A DNA stretch of 64,000 nucleotides from Periplaneta americana (lineage: Eukaryota; Arthropoda; Insecta; Blattodea; Blattidae), in NCBI RefSeq assembly GCF_040183065.1, contig NC_091120.1, positions 73,572,708-73,636,707 of the forward strand, given 5' to 3'. Below are positions 23,801 through 64,000 of the stretch, piece after piece. A model generated the notes under the pieces. That model saw only the letters and a list, made by a program, of their open reading frames with translations, ran no database searches and had not been told where the DNA came from. Position 1 is the first letter of the stretch; each line of letters opens with the position of its first letter. A program made the translations under genes and the position numbers.

Positions 23801-26800
23801 TAAATTATGCAGAACATTTTTGGGAGTCTGGAAAAATGAAGCATAAGCTTTAAGGGGTCCGTGATATTCAAAATGTTTGGAACCACTGTAGTAGTCGTTT
23901 GTCAAGCTATATTTCAGTATATTGTATGAAAGGAAAATTAGAAATAGGTAAGAAATCTTGGAAGGTTAATATAAACCTTATTTACGACTTTTAAGAAACC
24001 TGCAGGTTCATTGCCACCCTCACATAAGCCAGCCATCAGTCCCTATCCTGTGCAAGATTAATCCAGTCTCTATCATTGTATCCCACCTCCCTCAAATCCA
24101 TTTTTATATTATCCTTCCATCTACGTCTCAGCTGATATCAACCTTATTGTTATTAATTTAGTTATTTTAAATGCTAATTATTTTAATTATGTTACTTGGA
24201 GAATCTTACCCCAGATACTTTATCTTGTGCTTTTGTACCTTAATCTGAAACAGTAGTATTGTAATGTCTTCCTTTTCAACAGAATTTACTTATTTCTACT
24301 TATAAGCAAAATGCTAACTTTCATATGATTAGCCACGACTGGTTAGTCATAATCTTGTTATACAGGACAGGCCACAAAGCTGTTACAATTTATATGATAT
24401 GTCGAAGTTACGGTTATATATTTTTAGGTATTTATTTTCACGTAGTTTCTCAAAGATGCAGTAGTTCCACTCAGTTCAGTCAGTAAAGACCTTCACCATT
24501 CTCAATGCACACATGCATCTGTCGAATCATGCTCTCCATGACTTGGTGACACATAAAGACAGGCACGAACTGAAGGTCGTGCAGATCTCTTGGTTTCACA
24601 GCATAAACACGATCCTTCACCATCCCCCATAACCAAAAGTCACATGGTGTGATGTCGGGAGATTATGCTGTCCATAGCAAGGGCACAACTCTTTCAAACC
24701 ATTGTTTTCCAAATATGTGTCTTTCACGTACCAGTGAACCACCAGAGCACAGTGAGCTGGTGCACCAACCTTTTAGAAGTAACCTGACTGCAAGATTTCA
24801 GTAGGATGTTTCGTTCCATGAAAGTGCACAGCATGGCAAGGTATCCTTCGCTGGTAATGGTATCTTGATCAGAAAAGAATAGGCCCACAATGCCCAGTTT
24901 AGAGATACCATGTTTACTTTTGGTGCATCACATACATTTTTCCGGAGTTCATGCTGATGTTCCCTACATATAACATGTCTCCATATAAAATATGTTGTTG
25001 TTGTTTTCTAATGCCAGGCATTTGACAATAAAGTCATTTGACCTCTTGCACTCCAATATTTTTCAAAGATATTATCATGACCAGCCACTGAAGCACAGAT
25101 TTTGAGGTGTTCCGAATCCATTTCTTGGTTTGAGTTGCACAATGGGCAGTTGGGGACTGATATATTCCTATTCTATGCAGGTGTTTGGCCAAACAATCAT
25201 GGCCTGTTGCCAATCTAAATCTAATTATATATAAAATATATAACTCAACCTCCATATAAGTGGTAACACCTCTTAATTTAAAATTCTTTTTAAATTAGAG
25301 ACAAGTAAGTCTGTGTTAATCTTAAAATTAAGCATTATATCTATGCTAAATGTAGGTGAATTTTTTATTTTATATGAAGTGGAGATACTAATTGCACTTG
25401 GAGCATCAGCGTCTGGTGCTTACAGCAATTCGACACCCCTTGTTGAGAGCCTGTGTCAGGCAGGAGCGCTCTCTGGAGACAGAGTCTGGAGAATGCCATT
25501 GTGGCGTTATTTCAGTCAACAGGTGACAAGTATGTAAAGTCTGTGTAATTGGTTTAACTATTATGTTATAAACTTGATATGAATATGAAAACTTAATTAT
25601 TTTTTATATTGTATTTATAGCTTTAATTATCAAATCTGAAGTATGTGATGTACTTTCATTTTAAAAGAAACATGGAAACAGATTTATATCGGTTTAGTAA
25701 AGAATGTCTTTCTCGATATGACACGTTTTCTTTTCTTCCAGATTCTCAGTATTCTGACCTTATCAATTTGGCAGGACCTATGGGAGGATCCTGCACTGCA
25801 GCTGCTTTTCTGCAGGTAATACACTGTAGTTAATGTTTACTATCATGAATTTGATACATGCTGCCATAGTGGACAAATTGTATCATGAGTACTTAAGATT
25901 AGGGTATTTTGCATGTAAACTAATGTAATCGTATTAGTCTTTCAAATAGCATTGTGCGAAGAACAATGAAAAGCATGTAATAAACAACATATGTATTGAG
26001 CATGTTCTTTCCCATGACATGTTTAAATAAAACATAATATTATATTATTGTTTGGAATATTTTTAGCTGACACTTGTGAAAAAGTAATCTAAGCATAGTT
26101 ATTATGTGTATTGTTTTGTGTACACTTTCTGATCATTCTGCTGTGTGCATTAGACTGTGCAAAAGTTCGAACAATATGTATTCTGATTTCCATATTTTAA
26201 AATAATTGTAGCTCAGTTGGTAGAGCAGCTGGCTATGGACTGGAAGGTCCGGGGTTCGATCCCAGGTGGTGACAGGATTTTTTCTCGTTGCCAAACTTTC
26301 AGAACGGCCCCGAGGTTCACTCAGCCTCCTATAAAATTGAGTACCGGGTCTTTCCCGGGGGTAAAAGGCGGTCACAGTGTGGTGCCGACCACACCACCTC
26401 ATTCTAGTGCCGACGTCATGGAAAGCATGGAGCTCTACCTCCATGTTACGGGGATACCTTTTTACCTTTACCAAGATGAGTTAATATTACGCACATAAAG
26501 ATTTTTTTATTAACTTAGTCTGAAATTAAAATTAATATCTATTTACTTTGCATTTTATTATGTATGAGTGTTGATTACATTTTGTTTCTGTAGTTTACTT
26601 CATTTCAGTAAGGAGAGTTTTATATGTTAGTGTTACTTTAAGTAAAGGGTTGATTGAAAGAGTTGTTCCCTACCATTTTTGTGAAACCATTATTCCTAAC
26701 GTCTGTTTTTCCGAAATTTACTTTTTTTAATCCCTTCCAAAACAATTATTTCTAATCTACATTTTTTCGAAAGGAAATTCTTCCGTTAATCATTATTTCT

Positions 26801-37139: not shown

Positions 37140-39744
37140 GAAAGGAGCATTGCATGAACTTCATTTTGGACATTAGATTAGTTGCATGTTACATTTTATG
37201 TGTATAATGAAACTGTAGCACACTCGATATTTTGTCACCAGCCACCCCTGACACTAATACGAGTATTTACATTTAAATGAGTATTTTCTTTTAATACAAT
37301 TTTGTTAGAAGTGCATATTGTTAAATCACAAATGCAAATGGTTAAATATTAACCAAGTGGTATAAATTATCACTAAACAAAAAGAAATGAGTTTTTAGAA
37401 AAGTTGGTGTGTCCAATTAACACAATGTGTTACTGCCACAAAAGTTATTATGCTTTGAAAAATACTGTGAACTTCATACTTACTTTTTCTTTACTAACGT
37501 AAGATTGTATACATACATAGCTTTATAGTTGTTATTATTTGAATAGAAGAATGCGATTGTTGGATATTACTCTTTTTTGAAATTGAATTATAAATTTTAA
37601 CATCTACATCCTCTGCTATCCCCCTTAGTTGGCACTCATGGTGGATTCAACAGAATTCTATTACAAGTCATACTGGATATACCATGTTTGAGTTGCAGTG
37701 CGTTTGAAGACTGAATAATAAGTCGTGTTTTGAGCCCAGTATATTCACGCCATGATTTTTATTTGTGCAGCCACACAATGAACCATTTAAGAGTACAAAC
37801 TTTACACACAATATTCATTACCACAGAACAGAATTTTTCACACACACGAACACACATTTTAATCCTTCAATTAATATAAATTGTTATGTTAAAAAATGTT
37901 CCTTCTGGAAAAGAAATTTGTCAATAAAAATTCAATGTTTTCTTACAAAATTTTCACACGTGCTTCGATGCATAAAACCAACTGAACATACATGAAATAT
38001 CTTTACATCAATGCACAGTTTTGTTGATAATGAAGTATGTAAATGGCTGTGCTGAATGAATTATTAAAGATTAAGATTCTTGAGAGCAGAAAAAGACATT
38101 CCTCCTTTTTATACCACTTTCGTGATAAAATTTTAAGTGTATTGTGGAGAATGGAACAAATATAACTAACTATCCTATATCAGTATTTTAGGAACCAGGT
38201 ATCAATAAGTCATTTAAAGCTTACAAATCTGTACGAAAATATTTTATTTATGAGCACAAAAATGTGTGTTTCTCGGGCTTAATCCCTCCCACCCCCCTTA
38301 AGATCTTACTTAATAGCGAGCACAATTTATACATCTAGTGCATATTATTTGCATGTGTCTTTAATCTGGCTAGAAACCTTACTGATGTGATCAAATTAAT
38401 GTCACAATAACAATTATTTTCAATTTCACATCATAATATGCCTCTCAATGGTTCCCATTACCATCTCTAATCTGATTGTCTTATTACATCTTTGGGCTTG
38501 AAGTAAAACAAATATTTCTTATGGAACTATATTGCAACAGACCACTCTGAATGTAACTAACGACTTTTCTTCATTCACGTAACAATACATTACACAATTC
38601 ATTCTTTATCTATAAATCTATTTATATACGTAAACCTATTTACATGCTACTTGGAAGAAACCCGTAACTAATATAACCAACAGGTAGAGAGACTTCACGT
38701 TTCTGGTCCACCATCTCAGTTTAGAAGTGTCCACTACGTTCACAACACCTCAACAATTTTAACTCTTCTTGCAGCAGTCGGGGGTTGTGAGAGAGAAGCC
38801 AGCAGTAGTAATTTCTTGAGGTTCGGGTTGCCAATTGTCATGAAATAGGTTGTGTGCTTTCTTTGGTAAGAGTAACTGCTAACAGGTTTGCTCAAAGCTC
38901 TACATGCAATGCCATTCTCCTATATTGCACATTTCTTACCAATTTCTTACAGAGGATATTATATGTACTCCAAAAGTGATAAAAGAATTGCAATAATCAT
39001 TTTTACTCCTACTTAGGATGAATTACACAAAACTGCATACAGGGCACCTATTACTAAGTAATGACGTTCATATTATTATCTTAATTTACATGAAGTTTGC
39101 TAGAAAAGGATATAAGCATAGCCATCTTAAATTAACAAATCATGTTCATACACTTGGCAAAGGTGCTACTCCAGCATTTGTTGGTCTGATTGCAGAAAAC
39201 AAGCAGACAACACATTCATGAAATATGTTTAAAATTTCGTTTTTAATAACTTAATAGTAACTGAAAAAGCTTATGAACGATTTCAATACCAATAATAATG
39301 ACGACAGGCTTTAAAAGAAAATTGTATTAGACAATAATTTGAAATTTACACCATATAAGCTTAAATTTAAGTGATGGAATTGACTGATAAATTACAAAAG
39401 TACTAACTGGGTAATAACCTAATGTAGGCCTACTGTTCTCCATTGTACCACTGTGTAATAAATTGGTGAAAATTATGTTCGCAAACACAGAAAACTTTTG
39501 TGAATTATTACATTAAATTGCTGCCCATATACACACTGTTAAAATTTCAAGCTAAACTCTGCCAAATGAATAATACGCACATCCGTCAGATCATTTAAAG
39601 GAATCTCACTGTTTTTTAAGCCTATTTTTGAAGTTAGGTTGTTATAAATCACAATGCTCTTACTGCACTTATGCCACTATAAACTTTTACTGCCATCATA
39701 GTTTAATTTGCATAGAAACATTTCGTTTAAGGAACCATTTTCAC
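37140..39744. other. No gene or element recognised
   Basis: AT-rich sequence without motif-bearing frames. The open frames at 37765-37995 and 39018-39221 have biased composition and no family resemblance. Confidence 0.4.
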
Positions 39745-39756
39745 TTTCACAGACTT

Positions 39757-39894
39757 GTTGTTGTTTTCTAATGCCAGGCATTTGACAATAAAGTCATTTG
39801 ACCTCTTGCACTCCAATATTTTTCAAAGATATTATCATGGTTAGCCACTGCTGCATAGATTTTGAGATGTTCTGAATCCATTTCTTGATTTGAG
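39757..39894 (-). mobile_element. RNase-H LINE 3' fragment, copy C
   Basis: The last 138 bp of the copy-A family, ending in AAC repeats. A perfect 12-bp duplication, TTTCACAGACTT, lies at 39745-39756 and 39895-39906. Confidence 0.92.
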
Positions 39895-39909
39895 TTTCAC
39901 AGACTTAAA

Positions 39910-42258
39910 TTTGCAGAAAACTCTTCCACAAAGCTATTAAAATCACTTATTACACCTGTTTTTCAATACCTGTTCTTCTTTTTCTTTATTTATTTTTTTC
40001 TATGGCCTCTTTTCTAGAATTTGGGTTAGATCCATACCTTTCATTTTGGAATTTACAGTACTATATTGTTCGAAAGTTTGGCATACCAATACCGGTACCT
40101 AAGAAGTAATTTCATAAGTGTGCCATCAGGTAGTCTGTATTAAGTTACCATAAAAAAATCTTTTTTTTTTTCGTCAAAGTGGTTGATGCACACAGTTGTT
40201 GAAGAGGTAAAGTCTAATCTTTTCGAGATACTTCACGAATCCATGCTTGTCTTTTATCCTCACCCTTGGGGAATGAAAACATTGTTATATGTGTGCTAGA
40301 TTTTAATGTACCATCATAGTTAGACTTGCATTCAGCAACACAGCATCATCTAGGCATTTAACATCTAAGTAATTAAAATTTAATGATACAAATATGTGTG
40401 TCTAAAATGAAATGTCAAAATATTTAGGTTGGGTAAGTTAAATATAGAAATAATTATAATAATTCTTACCATAGTACAATAGAAAAACAGAAGCAGCTGT
40501 TAAAAACAATATCTACATGTAAAACAACTGTTAATTTAAAGCCTCACTAGATCATTCTCCCACACTTTACACTCCAGCTCGGAGTCTGATTCTGCTCTAT
40601 GCCAACATTGCGAATTCTAACAGGAGCATGGCTTGTTAATTTATGATGGCTGTGATATAAGTAAATTAATTATAAAGTCGTCTTAATGGTATTTCCATAA
40701 TTTTTTAATACTGGCCAAAAAAGTTTTTGTATGTTTGGAAAAATATAAATTCAATGATATATGACACAACATTTTCTATGTTTTGTAGTTTTGTCCCCCA
40801 TACTAATTTACTTCTTATTATAACATACATCTTTTAGAAATAAAAATAACGAAAATATTTACATAATTTCATGTGCCAAATAAGCTTGTATTGTAGTTGT
40901 AATCCCCTGGTAGAGGGGCAGAGAAGGCCTGACGGCCTTATCTCTACCCGGTTAAATAAATACATACTAATACTTTCAGAGACCACTTAGTAGTTGTTAT
41001 ACTGACACAAACTATGGAAATGCATTCATTTTGCAATTCATGTTTAATGTTCCAATAAGTTATACTGAAAAACAAATTGTATGATTATGGAAATGTAGTT
41101 ACACATTTTTCCCAACTTCAAATCAAGATTTGCTGAAACAAAGCTACCTCTGCCATCACTTTTGTTGAGCTAAAGTGTCCTGACTGTAGAGTATTTCGTG
41201 TACTGCTGTTGAACAACAAAAGATGGCTGATAAATTGAATGTAACTTTGTCTTAGCTAGCAAAAATTTTGTTTTCATGTGAATATCAACACTACAAGTTT
41301 TGCGAAATGGAAATTATTAATGAACATGTAATGATCTCTAATGAAATTTCATTTGGGCTTCACAAATTCAATTTCTATAAAGAAACAAACTTTGCATAGG
41401 GACTACTGAACTTTGTGAATGAACAGTAATATTTATTCGAGTTTGTATGTACTTTGCAAAAGAAATATTCCTTTACTGAGACCTAAACAATAGCTCGTGT
41501 ATCAAGTGCCAATAAGTATACCCAGTTAAAAAATAAATGGGTCTCAATCAAATTCCATAATTTTTTTTTTCTGCAGTGCGCTAAGAACTTATCCTTCTCT
41601 TAAGTATGTTAATACTGAATGTCTTACTGCAGTGCTGATCTGTTACATTCCTGATATTATTATGTAACCTTTACTCTTAACAGAACAAAAATAATAGAAA
41701 TTTTATATATATAAACGCTTGTACTATGGCTTCTACCAACATCCTCATCTGTTACTGATACATGGCACAAGTGTTTGATAAATTTCATTCTCTTCAAAAA
41801 ATCTAATACTTTAAATCAATGCTATACTTTCACGGAGTTCATAAAATGAAATGTATAAATGTTTAGTTGTAAATGCAGTAAAAAAATACATTAAGAATAC
41901 CAATTAAATGTTTAATAATGATCCCTTGCTTACTATCTCATTATAACTTTCCTTTTAATGATTTCCTTTTGAGATTGCCTTGAACAAAAAAAAAAAAAAA
42001 TAATAATAATTTGGGGTTAATATATATTTCTATACTGCAAGTAAATCTGGCCTATATATGGAGTACATTATAAAGAATCCTCAGTGTACCAAATTGTGTA
42101 CTTCCCATCTTCCAAACAGAGCATTGTTGTAGTCTGAACACAATCACGAACATTGTCAAAAAGTTACTAGAAGTCTACGGTACGATGCTCCATCACCATG
42201 TTCAAATCGCACAAATCCCAAGCAATGAACCGCACCGAGTTCCATCATGTGGGAGGGT
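39910..42258. other. Downstream region of MED28 (possible 3' UTR) with one retroposon tail
   Basis: No coding signal. 40915-40972 repeats the GGCC-hairpin tail seen at 30072-30142 (agagaaggcctgacggcctt). Several TTTATT words could be minus-strand AATAAA signals for MED28, but I cannot choose one. Confidence 0.4.
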
Positions 42259-42345
42259 TTAGGGGGCAGTCCCATAGTCCAGTGCTCCGCGTCCTCTCCC
42301 ACGCCCTCTTCCCCTGCCTCTGCCCCGCCCCCTCCCCCGCCCCCG
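42259..42345 (-). other. MED28: In-frame Arg-Gly extension after the MED28 stop codon
   Basis: The annotated TGA is at 42346-42348 and the next base is C. The same frame continues for 28 codons to TAA (42259-42261): ten Arg-Gly dipeptides and then ALDYGTAP. Arg is written with five different codons (CGG, AGG, AGA, CGT, CGC) and Gly with three, so this is not a plain DNA repeat. Possible explanations: translational readthrough at UGA-C, a recent nonsense change of a Gly codon (GGA to TGA would give EGRRGRGRG), or an assembly error. Confidence 0.6.
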
Positions 42346-45300
42346 TCACCTACGTCCCTCTGGCATTCCTATGTTGCTCGTGGTCTTCTCCAAGAATGCT
42401 AAGGGGCCTTGTAACACTCCACCTGGTCCTTGAGTGGGGAAACCAGACGGACCTCGTGGGCCTGCAGACTGCTGCATGAACATCGCTTGTTGGGGTGACA
42501 CCATTGGTCCAGGACCCCCACTACCAGATGCTACTGAGATTCCTGGTGGACCCTGCAATCAAATGCATGCCGTTTCAGTGAGAAACCCACATGGGGCTCA
42601 CTGAAACATCCAAACACAAATAAAAACTCTAAATAAAAAGTAAACATCAGAAACTAAAGAATAACTTATAAAAATGTAATTAAAAATAAAGTAATATATA
42701 ATATAATTAAAAATAAATCAATGCCTTGAATTAAGACAACAAAAAATAAATAAACTTTTGTTATATAAAAACTGAAAGGTCATAAATGAGAAAGTAATAC
42801 AATTTAATAAAATCAAATATTGAAGTTTTATCACTGATACACTGATATGTAATTCAATTACTATTAGAAAGTTACCTATAATATAAAGATAGTTATAGGA
42901 ATATTATTTTGATTCATCTACACGTTTTAACTACAAATCTTTTTTCTTCACGTCATTATGCATGAATTCATCTAATCTACTTTCTTTATAATCTAGATAT
43001 TTAAAAATAAGAATGTAACACGTACATTTTGCTGGATATGTTATATTTCAAAGGCATTCTGAATAAGGTTAATTGTCTGAATTTTGGCGTTAATATTTCT
43101 GCGCTAATTAATTTTCGATAGAAAACGTGTTAACTTATATGGCGAAAATCATGTCCTTATATGTTTCTTTGTAACGATTACATTTGAGTCAAATGTTTAT
43201 TTTTCCAGTAAAACGAATTATGCGAAAAAATATATTTAAAACAAACTTAATACACATAAATTATTTGATTAAAACTATTTCCTTTTTAAGATACGTAAAA
43301 TATAGACATATAGTTCTCCAGATATGAAAAATGTATGTTTAATATTTCCTATGTTAAATGTAAAACAAGGTTAGTTCCTAATCACTAAAATTGTGCAGAC
43401 TGATCTAGTGCATAATAACAATATCTAACTAAATTCCCTGAACTATTTATCAACTAGAAGCAGTGGGTGATGTTAAAAGTGCTATTACTTATAAACTGTG
43501 ATGAATTATCAATATGTGCTAAGATTAATACATACATATTACAGTAATTATGACATAGATAATTACTTTTCGCAACGCAGTTTCCATTTCGCAATTACGG
43601 TGACTTGGGGCATATCGGACGAACTTAAACTGTTAAAAGAATAAAAGCCAAGCAAAATAAATTAGAGAATGTCGTAATACAAAATAAAGTGAGGGATGGA
43701 ACAGTGTTGCATTGTCCTTTGTTTTCCCCCAATATGCTACCTGTTGTTGCATTTGTTGCTGTTGAAGCTGCTGCTGTATTTGCTGTTGCTGTTGTTGCAT
43801 TTGCTGCATCTGCTGTTGTTGCATTTGTTGTTGCTGTTGCTGCTGCTGTTGTAACTGTTGTTGTTGAAGCTGCTGTTGCATATTATTAGGCATAGTATTA
43901 GGTTGTGGGGGTGCACCAGTGGGAGGTGCAGGAGGTTGAGGTCCCGCATTTCCATTTGGTAATCCAGTAGGAGCTGGACCCTGTGCAGGTGACTTTGCCC
44001 AGCCTTGAAGATCAGCCAGTAAATTCTGCCATACAGCTATTTTTTCATAATGTCTTTTTATCAGGTCTTCTTTTCGTACCAATTCTAATCGAAGCTCATT
44101 TGTATCCTGAACAAATATAAGATTTGACATTAATAAGATAATGTCACAGTAATATAATAATGCTTACTGACTTTAATGTTTGTTAAGCACAGATGAGGAG
44201 GATATGGACATGAAACACCTTGCAAATTGCGAATATTTTGAGACTTTTCTATCTTATGTAAAGATACTGAGAAGCAAGAAGGAAAATAACTTAATTTCTA
44301 AATCCTAAGCATTAGATACACACAATAATGTAATCTAAGAATCACATATACAAATATAGATGTGATAAGCTATATACAGATAATAAAAAAAAGGTCTCCA
44401 TACAAAATCCATTTTTTCTGTAGTACTGTATTGTATTGTATATATTAACATTCCATGGTATTCATACATGCTTACAGCTAGAATATGAAACAAGTCAAAA
44501 AACTTAATACTATTATAAAGTCTTAATTTATAGTCACACTCTAGATGAAATATATACAGACGAGATTTACACTATAGTCTACTATAGTCCCGTCCCTCTA
44601 ATTTCCGGCAGCCAATGGCATTGCAGGTCAGCTACATTTAAACGTGTGCGTCTTGTGATTCGCTGTGGAAGACGTTATTCATTTCTTAAGGCTCTTTTAT
44701 TGGCGTTTGCAGAAAGCACATGAGGACGTTATTTGCCGCTCAATTATTTGCTGAATTACAGTCGTTTTATTTATTATCATAGGAGCTACGACATGATGTT
44801 TAACGGTGTGGCAAATAGATTCCTAATATGGTAGCTCGGCAATGAAAGAACAAACTACCTAACTAGACTTTATAGAGCCTTCACTTCCTCAGACTAAGCA
44901 AAGAGGAGGAGTCACGCCGGGAATAACAGCGTCGCGACTATAGTACAACACAAAGTTTTAGTATCAATTTCATGGGAAAATTTTAGAACACGGATTGCAC
45001 CTACCAAATTATGTCTTAAAATACTAAAAGGTGCAGATTTGTCTGCGTTTGTAGAATGCGCATCATTATATTTACGAAAAGGCACTTTTCAGTGCCAATA
45101 ATTTATTTTGTGTGCACAAGGTTGGAATTTTGAAGTAAGAGGGAAAGGGTTCAATCCATGTTCTGGAGTTTATCCCAATATATTTTCTGTACAGACGTTA
45201 CACAAACTGATAGTAAAACTAGACAAACAGGAAAGCACAGAGAGAAATAGCATGGAAAATGTATTAAAGTATCATATCCTTTAGTTCATTTACATATGAG

Positions 45301-48300
45301 GAGCATCGTTTCAAAACGTGTTATGTTCCCGAATTCTAATTTTACAGGAAACAATAAAAAAGTTTTTCTCCTAAAGTGTTTTGAATATGTATAAAAATGA
45401 ACTGCCATCGTGTTAATATAGACATTTATAACTAATACTGATAAAATCTGAAATGTGTTTCCTATCACAATGCGGAGCAATTTCACTTTTAATTTGTTAC
45501 TTAATACGTTTTGAAACAACACAAAGAATTTAATACGTTTTGATCGAACACCTTTTGTTTCTTACACAATGCTGTTTCATTTATTTATCTTTTTCACAGA
45601 GATGCCATTTATTATTTGTTATAAAGTAACAGAAATGGTTGTTTGAGATTAAATATTCTGTGTTCCGCATTTATTATCAACAAAATAGGCCTATCATAAG
45701 TTATACTAGGGCACTAATAAAATTGAAGGTACATTGTATGACTTGAGGCTTTCCCGGCGTTTAATGTAGAATAACTCTTCTCGGGTTCTCAGCCAGGTGA
45801 GTTGGAGATTAGCTTCCAAGCTTTCGACGGCTAGCTCTGCCATCTTCTTCAGGGAATGAAGTGATGTGGGACCATGTCTAGCCGGTATATATGCAAAAGT
45901 AGGGCTTCCTGCTGTCAGACAGTTGGGACCAGCAAGTAGCTCCTGATTGGCTGCCGCTTCCACAAACCAGAATGCTCCTGGCGGTCGGGACTAGGAACTA
46001 GCTCCTGATTGGCCCGCAGCGGGAAGCCCTACTTTTGCATATATACCGGCTAGACATGGTCCCACATCACTTCATTCCCTGAAGAAGTTGGCAGCGCTAG
46101 CCGTCGAAAGCTTGGAAGCTAATCTCCAACTCACCTGGCTGAGAACTCGAGAAGAGTTATTCTTGAAGGTACATTGTTTTTTTGAGTATCCTTTAGTCTA
46201 AAATGAATACACATAAGTAATATAATTATGAAAATACAGTCTTTCAAAACCTGATTATTCAAGAAAATGTTCACCATGTTCGTTATTTTCAGTAGAAGAT
46301 CCTGTATCATTGCTGAGGCAGAAACATAGAACCCCACGTCATCCAGTTTTTCCTAACTATCTTCAAATCTCCTTTTAGCAAAGTATCCACATTGTTCTTC
46401 TTAGCATCAGTAAGATTTGTGGCACTGTTATTCTTCTTACTCCTCGTTTTATAATATGAGTGCCTACTTTGAAAGGATTATCATATCTAAATGTGGGTTC
46501 CATTTTCAAAGTAACCTCTGATTTTCCATTTTTATAGATCCTTTTTAACGTAACCCTTTTAATATCCTTGATTGCGTCCGCCTTTTTGTATTGTGAAGCT
46601 AGAGATTTGTAATCTCGAATTGTCCAATTTTTTCCTAGAGTTTTAACGGAAGCCACTGTTTCATAAAAAAAAACCCTATATTCATTAGGGGTAATTATCT
46701 CGGCTTTTTTACTTATTTATTTTACTAAGTTATTTTACGATGCTTTATCAACATCTTAGGTTATTTAGCATCTGAATGAGATGAAGGTGATAATGCCGGT
46801 GTAAAGAAAAAGAGTCCAGGGTCCAGCACCGAAAGTTACCCAGCATTTGCTCATATTGGGTTGAGAGAAAACTCCGGAAAAACCCTCAACCAGGTAATTT
46901 GTCCCGACCTGGCCGTTACTCCACAGGTGTGGACTCTGCTTTCTTGCGCAACGTTTTCTCTACGATTCAGAATGGCCCCACACTGGAAAATACATTACAA
47001 CTTCGGAAATATGTGGGGTGCCTTGCTTTGGAGCCAGAAAGGAAGGACATGTACTATGTGCATGTTTTTGTTCTGCCCGCTGCATCTGTCAAGAAAAGTC
47101 TTATGCAAGTAACATCCTGCTCAAAGCTGAGAAATGACATTCCTCCTGATGCCACTTCATTTGCCCTCTTCCAGACTGAATCTCGTTGCATGCATAGAAT
47201 GTAGGGAACTTTGAGGGAATGATGCATAGTGAATTGGAAACGATTAGTTGTAGAAAGGTCCAATTTTCCTTATTGTGTGTAATTGGAAATGCATGTACTT
47301 TAGAAGATAATATTATCTCAGAATGAGATATTTAATTTAGTTTATTGTAGTAACACAGCTGATGTATTTATCTTGTTTCGATTTCGCGATTTCTTTTTGT
47401 TTTTGTTGTCAGCCTTTTCCTGATCCTCTTTGATCTTTCTCCACTATTGAATAACCATTCATTTTACACAAAAGTAGTAAGCAACCGTTATTCATTACAT
47501 CATGCACATCGCTGACAACTTAGGAAAAAATGCGGCATTTCGTTCTGGTCAACCAACGAAAGGAAAACAGTTGGGAATTTAATACGATTTGAACCGATCA
47601 GTTTCGCGAACATAACACGATTTTATCCGACCGTTGCTTACGAGATTACACAAGCTGGCGCATAGCACGATCGAGAGTAGGTCTCTGTGAGTCATGACAA
47701 TTTCTGCCGCTAGGTTCGCCTCGCTGTCCTAAGAAATGTTGAATAGTACCATTAAAAAGCATTGTGTATCGTGAAAATAGTTCGATTAATTGTGCATTAC
47801 TGATTGAGTACGAATATTATAAATATGCCAAGCATATTACAGTGTTATTTGAAGTTTGTTCAGCTAAGTTATATTCGAAAATTGGCAGTTATCCGTCACA
47901 ATTCTAATTACTTTAAATCCAATATCTTCCACTACTTTCAGGGCTTCCATAGTCAATTTTGCCAACTCATCTAAGGTTAAATTGTGTGTAAAATAAAATG
48001 GCACTGGTATTCTGTACTTTGTAGACAGACCCTTGAACAGAATGCACAGCAATTTATTGGCCAGCTTATTTTCAATCCCAATAACATTTTTCTCAGTGTC
48101 TGTCATTCCTATCAACATATCCAAATTTCTGTCATACATCAATTTCGGTTTAATACTCATTTCGTCAATAATGAGAGATCCAACTTTTTCATTTTCATGC
48201 TCCAAGGACTTTTCCTCTGCAATTAGCCGAGCCTTTATCAAAGAGGTGACACCTGTTTCTCCTTTTGAGTGACCAATATAAGTTTTTAATGTCTTTTGAT

Positions 48301-50095
48301 GGGGTAAGTGTAAAATACCCAAGTTTCTTAGTAATCTATAGCCGGTAGATGACCTGTTAGATAGCAATATGCAGATTTTCAGTGTGTTTTCATGAAATTT
48401 ACACTTTTGTTTTCCGAAAGCCTGAATTTGTTCAGTCAAAAAGCTTGCTTTCAAACTACCTTCTTTTGCAGCTTCTTTTATTTTGGTAAGTTGCTTTTCA
48501 ATTCCTTGTTCTTCCTTCTCGTTTTGTTTCTGTAAACTCCAGAGCTTGCTTTTTAAATTAGGCCTACATATTGTCTGTCTTAGTTTTCCAATAAACTGAT
48601 TTTGTTTCCGAATTGTCCTAGTAATTTTTTTACGTTGTAATGTAATGGCTTTGGGAATTTTTTTACTTTCAATTGAGCATTGTGTGGCTATAGTTTTTTT
48701 ATGTGCTTCATAGATTTCTTCAATTGAAACATTTGCTTCATTGAAAGCTGATGTACTATGTTCAACATTGGGTTTATTTTTCTTAGCAGGATGGATGTTA
48801 TTCACCACTTCTGTTATCCTTCTTTTGTTGCGTCTATTTATGTTTGAAAAATTTTGTTTATGTTTTGGAAAATCATCAAAGACGGATGGTACCAAATTAG
48901 GAAGCAAACGTTTTATGTTGTGCTAATGCTAAAATCAGCTTCTTTGAAATGTCTGCTGCAGACACGCGATTTCTTGTTTGGCGTCCAAAGAGTCCTTGGT
49001 TTGTCCCCTTCGCGAGAAATGGCTACACACCACTTCTTTCTTAGTCCTTCATCTTGTGGAAAACAATGACACGAAAAATCACATTCTTTATTCTGGTTCG
49101 ATTTGCACAATGGCACACAGCAGTAAACCATTTCAATCACACAAATTACAGGCTAACTTCCTAATTTAATAAATGCTAATTCGAAATAGATTTACACGCA
49201 CTAAAATACTACAGCGTTTACTATTACTATGCTCAATAGATTAATCAGTAGGCCTATAGAAATGTTTTCACCACTGCAAGAAAAAATCGCGCAATAAATT
49301 ATACTTCTCAGTTATTGTGACGTTCGTATTTTTTTTAAAGAGAGGGAAAAGTTAGGCCTTCTTGCAAATGCTTAATTATGAATTCAGGGAAATTAAAGAT
49401 AATGCAGTACCTTAATTAGTTGCAATATCTTATTTAATAACAATATTAATAATATTAGGTGAAAAGGGTAGGCTATAGTGCGTATATGTAAGATGTCAAG
49501 TTAATTTATTTCCGGAAATGTTTGGTGTATCAACTGAAGTACAAAGCAGACAGTCCCTCAGTTTATATGTAATATGTTTTAATATCAAGAATGACAGCCT
49601 TTTATTGTAATATAATTGAGGAGTAGAAGTTTGGAAATTACGTCTCTTGTCCATAAAATATTGTACGAAGCATTTAATAAGCAATGGTGAGTCCTTTAAA
49701 TGTCCCAAATGTTAATGTCATTTAAGTGTTCTGCTATGAATATTTAGGGCAGAACAGCGCTCAGAGCGGCGGAATTGGCATTACGAGGGAACCACTTCAG
49801 ACTCGTTTTTCAAGCGCTATGCGCCAGCTTGTGTAATCTCGTAAGCAACGGATCCGACGCATCAGAAGGCGCATACAAAAAATACAGAATATAATATGAA
49901 CTGATCCAATTTTGTTATGATATATGATGAAGACATGCTTATAAGTGAGAAATCGCATCAAACTAAATTTCGATAGAGGGGGGACTTAACACGTTTTGAA
50001 ACGACACTCCTCATATAGGTATATAGACTGATATGAAATGAAGTGTTTGAAAAACAGGAATAGAACGGGATAATTACAACCTCAGTGTGAGTGTA

Positions 50096-50132
<37 letters not shown>

Positions 50133-50535
50133 CTACACAGATTTCAATGAAAGTGCCCATAAGCATATAGACGAGCAATTACCTCTTTAACAACCAACTC
50201 CGGTTTCAGAGCAGACAAAAGAAACCTCTTTTGTAGAAAGAAGGCTTCCATTTGACGTGCTAAATCAATGAAACGTAAAATTGTATGGTCAACCTCTACC
50301 CGAATTTCATCTTTTTCCATCGTTGGCAATGCTTCTTCTTTGGTTAATACTGTAAGACATGACTGGAAAGAAAAGAACATATTCAGTTTTATTCCAAGCG
50401 TAATCATATTGAATTAGACTCCTTGTCAGTCAATTAGTTATTCTTTTATAGCAAAATAATTAAATAAAGCCATACCTGGAAAGCTTCCTCAAATTCATCA
50501 ACTAAATTACCATTTCCATTTGTTGTAGCCGCCAT
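42346..50535 (-). CDS. MED28: Mediator of RNA polymerase II transcription subunit 28, 4 exons
   Basis: Head-module subunit of the nuclear Mediator complex, which bridges activators and RNA polymerase II. Exons on the minus strand: 50476-50535, 50183-50362, 43741-44106, 42346-42552. All junctions are GT-AG and phase 0. They encode 20+60+122+68 = 270 aa. The start is ATG in MAATTNGNGNLVDEFEEAFQ. Exon 2 holds the family core (RFIDLARQMEAFFLQKRFLL). Exon 3 begins with a charged helix (RLELVRKEDLIKRHYEKIAV) and ends in a long Gln/Met tract. Exon 4 is Gly/Pro-rich and ends GPLAFLEKTTSNIGMPEGRR before TGA. Fly MED28 is shorter, mainly in the C-terminal half. The intron between exons 2 and 3 is 6 kb and contains nested transposons. 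The TGA is followed by an Arg-Gly extension, annotated separately. Confidence 0.93.
44975..45176. mobile_element. MITE-like inverted-repeat element, copy 2
   Basis: The ends TTTTAGAACACGGATTG and CAATCCATGTTCTGGAG are inverse. It has the same core (aaaggcacttttcagtgcca) as copies at 1017-1402 and 55981-56181. About 200 bp, in the large MED28 intron. Confidence 0.7.
45738..46162. mobile_element. Palindromic insertion with 15-bp target duplication
   Basis: Two arms of about 190 bp (45769-45960 and about 45970-46162) are near-perfect inverted copies, sharing for example ccggtatatatgcaaaagta and its inverse, and cgtcgaaagcttgg. The left side has about 30 extra bases. The direct repeat TTGAAGGTACATTGT at 45723-45737 and 46163-46177 shows insertion as one unit. 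The length of the duplication suggests a retroposed origin, possibly a Penelope-like terminal-repeat dimer. Confidence 0.8.
46375..46656 (-). other. Unrecognised open frame inside the outer element
   Basis: 93 codons, Lys-rich, with words such as KNGKSEVTLKMEPTFRYDNP. It has no ATG near the 5' end and no family that I recognise. It may be a decayed coding part of the surrounding transposon. Confidence 0.3.
46728..46937 (-). mobile_element. SINE family 1, copy B
   Basis: The inverse of copy A: on the plus strand it runs from ttattttacgatgctttatc through ttagcatctgaatgagatga to ccgttactccacaggtgtgg. Divergence from copy A is modest. Confidence 0.8.
46950..47203 (+). other. Unrecognised open frame with protein-like composition
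   Basis: About 84 codons from just after the SINE to a stop: SAFLRNVFSTIQNGPTLEN, then LRKYVGCLALEPERKDMYYV, then VFVLPAASVKKSLM. Composition is that of a globular protein rather than noise, but I do not recognise it. There is no start codon of its own. It could be a transposon frame or a captured host fragment. Confidence 0.3.
47864..48907 (-). CDS. P/THAP9-like transposase, N-terminal and RNase-H-like part (truncated)
   Basis: 347 codons read on the minus strand. The start resembles the post-THAP AVPTLF-type motif (NLVPSVFDDFP). A Lys-rich coiled-coil-like stretch follows, then the transposase core: SLIIDEMSIKPKLMYDRN carries the first catalytic Asp, and VIRIVTDNCQFSN the second Asp region. 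The frame ends there, so the GTP-binding insertion and last catalytic acid are missing. The THAP domain upstream (48913-49140) is in a different frame. Confidence 0.8.
   Translation of the reverse strand: MLPNLVPSVFDDFPKHKQNFSNINRRNKRRITEVVNNIHPAKKNKPNVEHSTSAFNEANVSIEEIYEAHKKTIATQCSIESKKIPKAITLQRKKITRTIRKQNQFIGKLRQTICRPNLKSKLWSLQKQNEKEEQGIEKQLTKIKEAAKEGSLKASFLTEQIQAFGKQKCKFHENTLKICILLSNRSSTGYRLLRNLGILHLPHQKTLKTYIGHSKGETGVTSLIKARLIAEEKSLEHENEKVGSLIIDEMSIKPKLMYDRNLDMLIGMTDTEKNVIGIENKLANKLLCILFKGLSTKYRIPVPFYFTHNLTLDELAKLTMEALKVVEDIGFKVIRIVTDNCQFSNIT
48913..49140 (-). CDS. THAP DNA-binding domain of the P-like element
   Basis: C2CH zinc finger: CCVPLCKSNQNKECDFSCHC, FPQDEGLRKKWCVAISRE, SRVCSRHFKEADF. 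The spacing fits THAP domains (C-x2-4-C, W, C-x2-H). In P elements this domain binds the transposon ends. The frame shifts just before the LVPSVF motif that should close the domain, so the protein is probably not made whole. Confidence 0.8.
   Translation of the reverse strand: MIEMVYCCVPLCKSNQNKECDFSCHCFPQDEGLRKKWCVAISREGDKPRTLWTPNKKSRVCSRHFKEADFSISTT
50099..50132. repeat. (AT)n microsatellite
   Basis: About 16 ta units, 50 bp from the 3' end of MED28 exon 2. Confidence 0.9.
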
Positions 50536-52447: not shown

Positions 52448-52505
52448 GTATCAACAGTCATATATCTCGTGTTATATATAGACAAAATATGACTCGAATC
52501 CTACA

Positions 52506-54362
52506 ATTCCAAATGTTAATGATTGCTTGAGTCAAGATAGTTCATCTCTTAAAAATGAAGAGGACTTAAAATTTTGGGAACAACAGTTTTTAAAAATATC
52601 TAATGAATTTAAAGATGATAATAAATTTGATGACAATAAGTTTGATGAACTTATATATAGTTTCCTTACATTTCTACGGAATGCTAAAGCTCAATGTAAA
52701 GGTCCTGAACACCCAGCTGTCAAATACTTTCGAGCACGGAAAGCCAAGAAACTCAATCAGCAACGATCAAACTTTTCTCAGTCCAGTAATCCCACATGTC
52801 GTGATAAACATTTTCGAGAAAGGAAAAAACAACAATATAATTATGATCTCGTTCAACATTATTATTATTTTAGACGTAAGAAGGTAGTTCAATCTATAGA
52901 GCATGATACAGAGGCTACACAATGCAAAATTCCCATTTCTAGTATTTATGAATTTTATTCTGAAACATTAGGAACAGAAAATGTTTCCACTTTCCCTGAG
53001 AATGATGGTATAAATGATTCTCACCATTTGATATCAATTGAAGACATACAGCATGCCATGAAAGGAATGAATGTTGATACGGCACCTGGCCCTGATCGGA
53101 TATTACTTAAGGTAATAAAAGAACTAAAATGCTCTAATATTATTTGCATTATTGCCAACATAATGCTTGCTTGGAATTATGTTCCCAAATCCTTTAGAAG
53201 AGGCCGTACCATCTTAATTCATAAATCTGGAGATCCGAGTATAATTACTAATTGGCGCCCCATAACTGTTTTCTCTATTTTACGCGGAATTATTGAAAGG
53301 ACCTTAGAAAGAAAAATTCGACCTTTTCTGGAACTATCTTTTCAACAAAGAGGATTTGTAAGAACTCCGGGAACATTTATTAATTCTTCACTGGTTAACA
53401 GCTGTCTTCAACACTCTAAATTAAAGAAGAAAGATTGTTGTATCACGTTTTTGGACGTTTCCAAAGCGTTTGATAATATTGGATATCAACAAATTGAACA
53501 GTCTATTAATTCGACCTCTGTTCCTCAGGAAATGAAATCCCTAATAAAATCTCTCTTAACTAATAACTCTGTCTTCATTGAATTAGATGCAGCTACCCGT
53601 ACAAAAGACATCCCCGTTCATAGAGGAGTTGCTCAAGGATCACCTTTATCACCCATTCTGTTCAATCTGGCTATTGATTTCATTTTTAAGGAATTAAATG
53701 ATCCTGAATATGCCTCTCAATTTGGTTACCAACTTAGTCCATACTGCCAGAGCTTAACAGCTCTAGGATTCGCTGACGATATTGCCCTCATATCAAATAA
53801 TGTTGAATCAGCTATGTTTCTAATTGACACTACTAATCAATACTTACAGCGAATAGGTCTACAACTTAATGCCTCTAAATCCAAAGCCATTGTTATAGAA
53901 AAAGGAAATCTAAAAACATCTGACATTACAACAATAAGTGGTTTGAATATAGTGTCAACAAATAGCAATGACACCATTAAATATTTAGGCGTCACATATA
54001 AAGATGAAATCATTTTAGATGAGAAAGGCATTATGAATAAATTACATACTAGTATATCCAAACTAGTACATTCAACGCTTCTCAAACCAGATCAAAAGAT
54101 AAATATAATAAACCAATATATATGGCCAAGTCTGATTTATCCTCTACAATGTGCTCCATTATCAAAGCTCAAACATAGTTTTTTGCTTGATATTGATAAA
54201 TTGATAAGAAGTGCTGTCAAGGAAATAATTGGATTGCCAATCGATAGCCCAGATAGTATGCTTTATAGTTCCAGAAAAGTTCGTGGTCTGGGGATTATGA
54301 AAGCTTTGTGGGAAGCATTCTTGCAACATATTAATGTAATGCAACCTGTTAGATTCCATTGA
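52506..54362 (+). CDS. Reverse transcriptase of the R2-type LINE
   Basis: Over 600 codons open (the 5' limit is a stop; there is no clear ATG because the protein should continue from the finger region). Motifs in order: VDTAPGPDRI, a NWRPITVFSILRGIIERTLE block, CCITFLDVSKAFDNIG (first catalytic Asp), HRGVAQGSPLSPILFNLAID, LGFADDIALI (the Asp pair), then a YLGVTY thumb start. All catalytic residues are kept, so this part is fairly young. The frame ends in a stop about 100 bp before the next coding part, at a one-base shift. Confidence 0.9.
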   Translation: MPNVNDCLSQDSSSLKNEEDLKFWEQQFLKISNEFKDDNKFDDNKFDELIYSFLTFLRNAKAQCKGPEHPAVKYFRARKAKKLNQQRSNFSQSSNPTCRDKHFRERKKQQYNYDLVQHYYYFRRKKVVQSIEHDTEATQCKIPISSIYEFYSETLGTENVSTFPENDGINDSHHLISIEDIQHAMKGMNVDTAPGPDRILLKVIKELKCSNIICIIANIMLAWNYVPKSFRRGRTILIHKSGDPSIITNWRPITVFSILRGIIERTLERKIRPFLELSFQQRGFVRTPGTFINSSLVNSCLQHSKLKKKDCCITFLDVSKAFDNIGYQQIEQSINSTSVPQEMKSLIKSLLTNNSVFIELDAATRTKDIPVHRGVAQGSPLSPILFNLAIDFIFKELNDPEYASQFGYQLSPYCQSLTALGFADDIALISNNVESAMFLIDTTNQYLQRIGLQLNASKSKAIVIEKGNLKTSDITTISGLNIVSTNSNDTIKYLGVTYKDEIILDEKGIMNKLHTSISKLVHSTLLKPDQKINIINQYIWPSLIYPLQCAPLSKLKHSFLLDIDKLIRSAVKEIIGLPIDSPDSMLYSSRKVRGLGIMKALWEAFLQHINVMQPVRFH

Positions 54363-57930: not shown

Positions 57931-58823
57931 TGTTTTAAAATTAATATATATATTTTTTTCAATCTTATCTAGAATTTCCTCTTTGGTTTCTTTAATGTAT
58001 TTACTTTTGAATTGTGCCATTACAAATGCAATGTTACGAATGTTACAAAATATTATAAGTTAACTGTTCCATTGAACTAGAGGAGAAAGACTACAAAATT
58101 TTTTTTATAATTTTTTAGTGCTGCTTATACTTTATATTTATATTCTGATAGAAAACATAGTTTGTTAAAATTTTATTTTATTTTATTGCTTTATTAATTT
58201 ATTATTATTATTTAAATATTTTACTGTAATTTTTATTCAGTCTGATAGCCTGTATGCCTACAAGGATCACTAATCATGTGACAGAGCATCAAGTAGTTTA
58301 ACATTTTTATAGCGCATACTATAAACGCACCGATCAAAGACAGTTTTCAGTCTATGATACTCTTTGAGCAACTGGGACAACCAGTCGGCTGTGATGCTTC
58401 GAGTGTTTTGCTTTCTGCAGAGTCAGTACACATGGCAGGTGGTTACTGTGTATAGTACGAAGTTTCGATTTTGTATATATCATGACTCTTAGATGGTCGT
58501 TTTCAATGAAATGCAGAGTCTAATACACAAATTTCAATAACATCTACTTACACAAGAATTAATCTATAGAACAGAAGGTATGTTTCGATATAAAGGATTT
58601 TACTTGCTTCTTGAAGCTGTGTTTGCTTTTTGTTTCCTTGATGCTAGTTTGTAATTAGTTATTAATGTTACTTCCCTATTAAATAAATTTTGTTTATATA
58701 TGTTATACGGAATCCATGGCATAACGAATGTGATATGGGCCTGCCCGCAAAAATAAAATTTCGGGCCCCCTAAAATAAAATGTATCAGTGCACCCAAATG
58801 TATAACCTATCAATAACTAATAA

Positions 58824-59123
58824 AAAAAAAAAGGTAAAGGTATCCCCGTAACATGCCATGAAGGCATTTGGGGGGCATGGAGGTAGAGCTCCATGCTTTC
58901 CATGACCTCGGCACAAGAATGAGATGGTGTGGTCGGCACCACGCTCTGACCGCCTTTTACCCCCGGGAAAGACCCGGTACTCAATTTTATAGGAGGCTGA
59001 GTGAACCTCGGGGCCGTTCTGAAAGTTTGGCAACGAGAAAAAATCCTGTCACCACCTGGGATCGAACCCCGGACCTTCCAGTCCGTAGCCAGCTGCTCTA
59101 CCAACTGAGCTACCCGGCCGCCC
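58824..59123 (-). mobile_element. tRNA-derived SINE, family 2, copy 2 (full length)
   Basis: The inverse of the copy at 26207-26472, but with the complete head (GGGCGGCCGGGTAGCTCAG on the minus strand). A perfect 15-bp duplication, ATCAATAACTAATAA, lies at 58809-58823 and 59124-59138. Confidence 0.92.
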
Positions 59124-59403
59124 ATCAATAACTAATAATGACATAAATATATTTACAGCTGATAGAAGTTCAACTTTAATGCGATATATTTCCAAATTAT
59201 AAGAACAAGGAGATTAATCGTTCATTATTGTAAGATTATTAAAATAATAACAAATATTAATAAATTTTATTAAAAAGCATATAATATATATACTATAGTG
59301 ATTGAAATTAAGTAGGTGGGTAGGCCTGTCATTAAGTATATACTTCTATCTGCTATCTGCTGTTTGTTGTACTTACAAAACTTTACTGTACTCACATTGA
59401 ACT

Positions 59404-62740: not shown

Positions 62741-64000
62741 ATGTTGTTGTTGTTGTTGTTATCTAATACCAGGCTTTGGCAACGAAGCCATTAGCGTTCT
62801 TGCTCTCCAATATTTCTCTGTGGTGGATCCATCAGGTAGAACTTCACAGGTTATGAGATGATCTTCAGTCATTTCTTCTTCTTTGTTGCATAGAGGGCAA
62901 TTTGGATTTGTGTAAATTCCTATTTTATTCAAGCGTTTGGCCAAATAATCGTGTTCATTCATTCATTCATTTATTTTATTCCATAGATCTTACATGAGCA
63001 ATGAAGCTTTAAGATGTGGAACATGTCAACATTTTACAATATTACAATTACAATTTTTATAGTTTTACAATTTAGTAATTTTCTACAATTTTTACAATGT
63101 TGTACAATTTTTTTACATTTTGGCGAGATGTAGTGTTCTGTAAGTAGTCTGAATTTTGCTACTGCAGATTTACATGGGATTTCTGGAATAATTTCTGTTT
63201 TTTTTTTTTTTATTAAAATGCTCCATTTTTTTATCTTTGGCTTTGGTACATAGTGCTTGATTTTATATTTATTTTTAATTAGTCTTTTGATGGATGTAAA
63301 AGGTAGGCTTGTATTTGTATTCTGAATTAAATTGGATCCTTTTTTGGCAAGAAAGTCAGCAGTTTCATTTCCAGCAATTCCGCAATGTGCAGGTATCCAT
63401 TGCAATTGAATTCTTTTCTGTAGTTTTTGAAGTTGTTGGATCATTTTGTGACATTCTTTAATTTGGATTGACATCATTTTATATGGATTTATTGCATATA
63501 ATGCTGCTTTAGAATCAGAGAGAATGACAGCATTTTGAAATTTATCTATTCTGTATAGTAGGTGTTGGAGTGAGATATGAATAGCCATTATTTCCGCATC
63601 AAAATTTGTTGTATGACGTCCTGCTGGTTGATAAAATGAGAATAACGCACACGTAATTCCTGATCCTGAGTTGTTATCAATAGTAGACCCATCTGTGTAG
63701 ATATGTAACCATTCTTCTGGTGGGTATCTATTGTTCACAGCTTCTAATGCCAGCACTTTTAGTACAGGTTTGGTAGTTTCAGATTTTGTAACTGGTTTTT
63801 CTAAATCTAGTTGAATGTTAATTGGTTCGAAGGTTAGAGGGTTTTTCTCTGCTTAAAATGTTTTCTTTAGATTTAGGGAGATTCAATTCTGTTTTTATTT
63901 CCGTGACTTTGGACAGGAACTTGTTTATGTTTTCAACTTGGTTGGGTGTAACAGTCTTTTTTACCATTTTGTTGTTGTTAACCGTAGCATTTTTTCATGG
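62741..64000 (-). mobile_element. RNase-H-bearing LINE, second subfamily, interrupted, runs off the window
   Basis: The minus strand ends in AAC repeats (GTT units at 62744-62760). The C-terminal CPLCNKEEEMTEDHLITC lies at 62759-62962. After an insertion, the RNase H domain reads [44 protein letters not shown] (63034-63756), with all four catalytic acids. Upstream, a stop or frame break occurs near 63855. It is related to the 19972-22165 LINE but clearly diverged. Confidence 0.88.
62957..63132 (-). mobile_element. Short retroposon 3' end inserted in the LINE
   Basis: 176 bp with a TGAA-repeat tail on the minus strand (attcattcattcattc on the plus strand). GTGTTC at 62951-62956 and 63133-63138 is the likely duplication. 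LINE homology stops and resumes exactly at these points. Confidence 0.75.

Follow-up and report, generated by a model that had tools for sequence, protein, structure and literature searches.

An in-frame arginine-glycine extension behind a candidate leaky stop codon in the MED28 gene of Periplaneta americana

The gene for the Mediator subunit MED28 in the cockroach Periplaneta americana ends in a TGA stop codon, behind which the same reading frame continues through ten Arg-Gly dipeptides to a second stop. The key question is whether these additional codons are ever translated. We put the probability at roughly 60% that the TGA is an ancestral, leaky stop, and that low-level readthrough adds the Arg-Gly tail to a minor isoform of MED28; translation past the stop is something we infer from the DNA sequence.

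The MED28 gene and the frame beyond its stop

The window (the whole stretch of DNA that was analysed, 64 kb in length) carries the MED28 coding sequence on its minus strand, where four phase-0 exons encode a protein of 270 residues. The exons and the features that follow them are:

50476..50535, minus strand: MED28 exon 1, coding part (MAATTNGNGNLVDEFEEAFQ), from the ATG to a CAG|GTATGG donor, phase 0
50183..50362, minus strand: MED28 exon 2, from a TTTCCAG acceptor to a GAG|GTAATT donor, phase 0
43741..44106, minus strand: MED28 exon 3, in which the Med28 domain ends and which holds a Gln-rich stretch, from the TTGTTCAG acceptor to a CAG|GTAGCA donor
42346..42552, minus strand: MED28 exon 4, made up of 68 codons plus the TGA stop, behind the TGATTGCAG acceptor
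42346..42348, minus strand: first stop, TGA, then C (TGA-CGG), by codon-by-codon reading
42262..42345, minus strand: in-frame extension of 28 codons, (RG)x10-ALDYGTAP, with a GC content of 0.762 against 0.563 in exon 4
42286..42345, minus strand: ten Arg-Gly units with synonymous-only variation, by codon reading and repeat tests
42323..42344, minus strand: canonical G-quadruplex motif G5-C-G5-A-G5-C-G4, beginning one base (C) after the TGA
42259..42261, minus strand: second in-frame stop, TAA, by codon reading

The protein is MED28 by its domain, as the full Pfam profile PF11594 (Med28, positions 1-102) matched residues 10-110 at an E value of 1.8e-33. A phmmer search of PDB chains matched three MED28 chain sequences, all mammalian, with E values of 2.3e-28, 3.1e-28 and 5.3e-27; these full-length alignments end at residue 126-128, upstream of exon 4. 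Residues 1-132 gave 6 pattern matches among viral contigs and 49 among genome contigs, and exon 4 gave 9 among viral contigs, with no relative confirmed in any of the three comparisons. On the 3′ side of the second stop the first ATTAAA poly-A signal lies at 299 bases and the first AATAAA at 821.

The codons immediately ahead of the TGA are GAG GGA CGT AGG (EGRR). In the tract behind it arginine is written with five kinds of codon (CGG three times, AGA three, AGG two, CGT and CGC once each) and glycine with three (GGG five times, GGA three, GGC two). The tract is a degenerate tandem repeat of 12/24 bases. The ALDYGTAP peptide at 42285-42262 is encoded by GCA CTG GAC TAT GGG ACT GCC CCC. A preliminary description of this DNA had reported the TGA-C of MED28, the (Arg-Gly)x10, ALDYGTAP and TAA in one frame, and the variety of codons for both amino acids. 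Our reading agrees with it in coordinates, which lie on the minus strand, and in codon counts.

The tail does not appear to be a piece of a known domain, and we rejected that candidate. Against Pfam it gave just two matches, at E values of 0.16 and 0.31, and against the PDB it matched six sequences at E values up to 1. The best of these were a GR20 dipeptide repeat (0.00025) and SNF2 (0.084), and the alignments of these two among the six consist of plain RG/GR repeats.

The window also holds several other elements. Within MED28 intron 2 (44107-50182) there is a transposase-like ORF of 352 codons on the minus strand (47867-48922; Pfam TNP-like_RNaseH_N, E 1.2e-24). Pieces of retrotransposons, which we infer to be of the non-LTR kind, lie at 19988-21403 (minus), 52482-54359 (plus) and 63037-63852 (minus), with matches to RNase H (E 7.1e-10 and 1.5e-17) and reverse transcriptase (E 1.2e-32). 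A probable leucine aminopeptidase exon is found at 17658-17972 on the plus strand (Peptidase_M17, E 7.8e-19). Two tRNA-Tyr-like genes (gta) stand 334 bases apart on the minus strand at 16128-16201 and 16462-16535; ORFs over or near both repeat a similar peptide, so they may be the heads of a tRNA-derived repeat and not tRNA genes. A dispersed repeat, perhaps tRNA-headed as well, is present in two copies with a shared reading frame at 26187-26498 (plus) and 58817-59131 (minus).

Constraint on the arginine-glycine frame

The ten 6-base units of the tract comprise nine distinct sequences. Measured against a consensus made of the commonest base at each phase they show 15 departures, five each in phases 1, 3 and 6 and none in phases 2, 4 and 5 (hypergeometric 2.9e-6), which is the pattern that Arg-Gly codons permit; this and the other figures from the repeat tests are not exact probabilities, because they describe a single sequence chosen by a reader hunting for oddities. 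A minimum spanning tree that joins the nine distinct units requires at least nine changes, and all nine are synonymous (P about 4e-5, taking the synonymous fraction of random mutation to be 0.32-0.33). When the bases of the tract were shuffled 20,000 times the longest run of Arg-Gly units obtained was five.

The alternative to be weighed here is that the tract is simply 3′ UTR, in which a G-rich repeat is kept at the level of RNA, as a G-quadruplex or splicing enhancer, or has recently been inserted from a gene encoding Arg-Gly repeats, with the match to the MED28 frame a coincidence. The tract is a degenerate tandem repeat with the sole canonical quadruplex motif of the 64 kb, as this alternative would have it, and G-rich RNA can act on its own. 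However, a simulated neutral repeat that grows and mutates kept ten Arg-Gly units in none of 20,000 runs, nor were they kept in any of 8,000 runs at each of six further settings, which combined three start units with or without protection of GG runs. The control for GG runs is needed since many of the same bases would also be preserved in a G-rich RNA element. In five of the ten units the G of the arginine codon has no neighbouring G, and so no role in a G run, yet it is still G in 5/5. A captured fragment, for its part, would have needed to land in frame directly behind the stop. We therefore regard an untranslated origin of the tract as unlikely.

The remaining five frames of the tract are less regular. 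Four contain seven or eight distinct dipeptides, and one antisense frame contains two (Pro-Arg and Pro-Leu). Coding frames on the other strand were rejected, since even in that frame, the most regular, the amino acids change.

The synonymous-only variation, the control for GG runs and the lone arginine-codon G together mean that the evidence within the sequence favours selection on the protein. The preliminary description had taken the codon variety as that expected if the protein is kept, and the nine synonymous changes out of nine, together with the simulations, bear this out.

The position of the stop

Comparison with two mammalian chains makes it most likely that the TGA coincides with the ancestral stop of MED28. 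The last 22 residues of the cockroach protein (LQGPLAFLEKTTSNIGMPEGRR) align ungapped and at zero offset with the last 22 of 7emf_1 (9/22 identities) and 8t1i_W (10/22), which we take to be human and mouse MED28. Both chains have 178 residues and were treated as full length. For neither chain did any of 100,000 shuffles align as well, and when exon 4 was placed against the human C-terminus by the best ungapped local alignment both ends came out level, with none of 5,000 shuffles as good. The C-terminal 25 residues, used alone, found no match among PDB chains at E values up to 10, and for this reason the comparison of termini relies on direct alignment. The seven residues that follow a conserved Asn-Ile are not conserved between Periplaneta and the mammals, so chance could explain the equal length.

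The position of the stop bears on a second alternative, in which the MED28 stop was lost in this lineage, an Arg-Gly tail evolved as a constitutive part of the protein, and a glycine codon GGA has recently become TGA, perhaps as a reversion to the old stop; an assembly error or a variant of the individual sequenced would have the same appearance. A constitutive tail accounts for constraint on the protein without any readthrough. The TGA also occupies the glycine slot of the repeat register, with AGG-TGA one base away from the tract unit AGGGGA, and only 3/61 possible preceding codons would place it so. The last three residues before the stop (GRR) are all Arg or Gly and resemble the repeat, which has a chance of about 1-2%, and TGA-C is by reasoning the product expected of GGA-CGN. 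A change of glycine to stop within an Arg-Gly repeat would in this way often yield TGA-C as well, so readthrough and such a change cannot be told apart by the stop context. Against this alternative, the stop lies exactly at the mammalian terminus, so a new stop would need to have arisen at the very site of the old one. The change would also need to be very recent, since not one amino acid in the tract has changed. The suggestion in the preliminary description that a GGA recently became TGA and shortened the protein is thus weakened by the alignment of stop with stop, which speaks against truncation, while the proximity of AGG-TGA to the repeat unit and the Arg-Gly character of GRR still count for it. 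On balance we think this course of events possible but rather improbable.

Stop context, the quadruplex motif and routes past the stop

Readthrough as such is already known in insects, where it is abundant. Functional readthrough stops are reported to number more than 600 in mosquito and 900 in fly (PMC5100048), and in the bumblebee at least 306 of 851 readthrough candidates are given as functional (PMC7826183). According to both sources TGA and a 3′ C are favoured at such stops, and this leaky context is the one found at MED28. The preliminary description had made TGA-C the leakiest stop context known in animals; these two reports have the context favour readthrough, and "leakiest known" goes further than they do. 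In insect readthrough genes the commonest 8-mer between a point 250 bases upstream of the stop and the second stop is CAGCAGCA (PMC5100048/PMC7826183), and one copy lies inside this zone, 240 bases upstream of the MED28 TGA, although a Gln-rich protein would in any case be expected to have CAG-rich DNA.

MED28 thus shares with the Drosophila, Anopheles and Bombus cases described in these reports the TGA-C, an in-frame second ORF, a sign of constraint at the protein level and CAGCAGCA upstream (PMC5100048, PMC7826183). It differs from them in that its constraint is read from repeat units within one genome, where theirs comes from aligned species, and in that its tail is mostly a single Arg-Gly repeat. 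The main text of PMC7826183 contains neither "MED28" nor "mediator", and that of PMC5100048 does not contain "mediator". Searches of open-access papers for cockroach stop codon readthrough and for insect readthrough with RGG returned none, which is not the same as absence from print, and a search of the open-access literature for MED28 with readthrough returned papers that by their titles concern horse and bowhead whale.

Outside the insects, UGA CGG is listed among the typical leaky stop contexts for one sequence cluster of the ilarvirus CP-RT (PMC11166343); the context is shared with MED28, but theirs are coat-protein genes of plant viruses and ours is an insect gene. In a mammalian reporter whose bases ahead of UAG were randomised, G-rich sequence is described as enriched in the monosome fraction, with C-rich sequence upstream suggested to promote readthrough (PMC13341110). 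The nine bases before the MED28 TGA are G-rich (5/9 G), which counts against readthrough.

The G-quadruplex motif that begins one base behind the TGA is the only canonical one (searched as G3+ N1-7 x4) on either strand of the 64 kb window, and it is made by the Arg-Gly codons. A synthetic quadruplex placed after a stop is reported to give 1.5% readthrough against a background of 0.3% in rabbit reticulocyte lysate, and its authors, writing in 2013, left the investigation of natural sites to later work (PMC3919603). A cluster of G runs directly after the stop is common to that system and MED28; their construct, however, was (G3U)4 in a Colorado tick fever virus readthrough reporter, whereas in MED28 we have a sequence motif with a spacer of one base, against the 6-8 bases given as best for frameshifting (PMC3919603). 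Read by eye, a register that uses later G runs would place the start of the predicted quadruplex 7 bases from the stop, but with one 8-base loop. A short RNA stem-loop was also considered as a stimulator and was rejected, as folding behind the stop did not reach significance: over 121 nt the folding had a z of -1.51, with 15/200 shuffles as good, and other lengths after the stop gave -1.70 (86 nt, 10/200), -0.64 (60 nt, 44/200) and +1.54 (49 nt, 193/200).

Quadruplexes tend to arise from Arg-Gly codons and are bound by peptides of the RGG type, and several RGG proteins are reported to attach to their own mRNA at the site that encodes the motif (PMC11789052). The MED28 motif may, in consequence, be a by-product of the Arg-Gly code. 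As in the cases of that report, the Arg-Gly codons of MED28 yield a quadruplex motif and at the same time specify a peptide of the quadruplex-binding type; those cases (FUS, FMRP and G3BP1) are RNA-binding proteins whose coding sequence contains the RGG motifs, while in MED28 the Arg-Gly codons lie beyond the stop. The words "readthrough" and "stop codon" are absent from the main text of PMC11789052. A further version of the readthrough account, which we hold to be speculative and quite unlikely, is that MED28 has a natural quadruplex recoding site, where readthrough of the UGA-C would be stimulated by the G runs that the Arg-Gly codons create, and the tail so made could bind its own mRNA in an autoregulatory loop.

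Ribosomes or transcripts might also be led past the stop by another route, by +1 frameshifting at the UGA in the manner of antizyme, splicing at the overlapping donor, A-to-I editing or selenocysteine insertion. G-quadruplexes stimulate +1 frameshifting in vitro too (PMC3919603), and the MED28 +1 frame continues without a stop to 42156. Yet along the tract this frame has 7 distinct dipeptides in 9, varying without sign of constraint, and in 12% of shuffles it remains open past the tract by chance. The corresponding ORF (42156-42368, minus strand, 70 codons across the stop) had no Pfam match, and its openness through the tract is expected from codons that start with G. The donor-like TAG|GTGACG scores 2.30 against 1.91 for the real exon-3 donor, by a rough donor matrix with approximate frequencies. 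The preliminary description had offered it as a splicing option, but the donor is an ordinary one: by the same matrix 3.0% of the GT sites of the strand score at least as high, and its use would remove the Arg-Gly tract and discard the tail. For selenocysteine, a search of 38000-43000 with Rfam gave no matches at E values up to 1, so there is no recognised SECIS element in that region; an Rfam element near the stop was rejected as a candidate on the same result. ADAR, which would have to edit the UGA, disfavours a 5′ G. Taken as a group we consider these routes very improbable.

Readthrough is therefore the best of the three options that had been put forward, with the constraint on the Arg-Gly frame, the stop level with that of mammals and the insect preference for TGA-C in its favour. 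In the mechanism that we propose the TGA would be the ordinary, ancestral stop that yields the normal Mediator subunit. A fraction of ribosomes, presumably small, would insert an amino acid at the TGA by means of a near-cognate tRNA and read 28 more codons, because of the C and the G-rich, possibly structured stretch that come after. The near-cognate tRNAs at UGA are those for Trp, Arg or Cys. The resulting minor isoform of MED28 would carry (RG)10-ALDYGTAP as its tail, and this tail would have been kept at the protein level for long enough to allow at least nine synonymous changes. Arg-Gly repeats are typical disordered segments that bind RNA and G-quadruplexes, so the tail would probably let some MED28 bind RNA or enter condensates.

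The function of most readthrough extensions is unknown (PMC5100048). If our reading is true, a Mediator subunit gains a minor isoform with a tail of the RNA-binding type, which would give a readthrough extension a clear role. It would also make MED28 a candidate natural G-quadruplex readthrough site, the point left open in 2013 (PMC3919603). A self-coupled quadruplex loop would be new, and would link a Mediator subunit to RNA.
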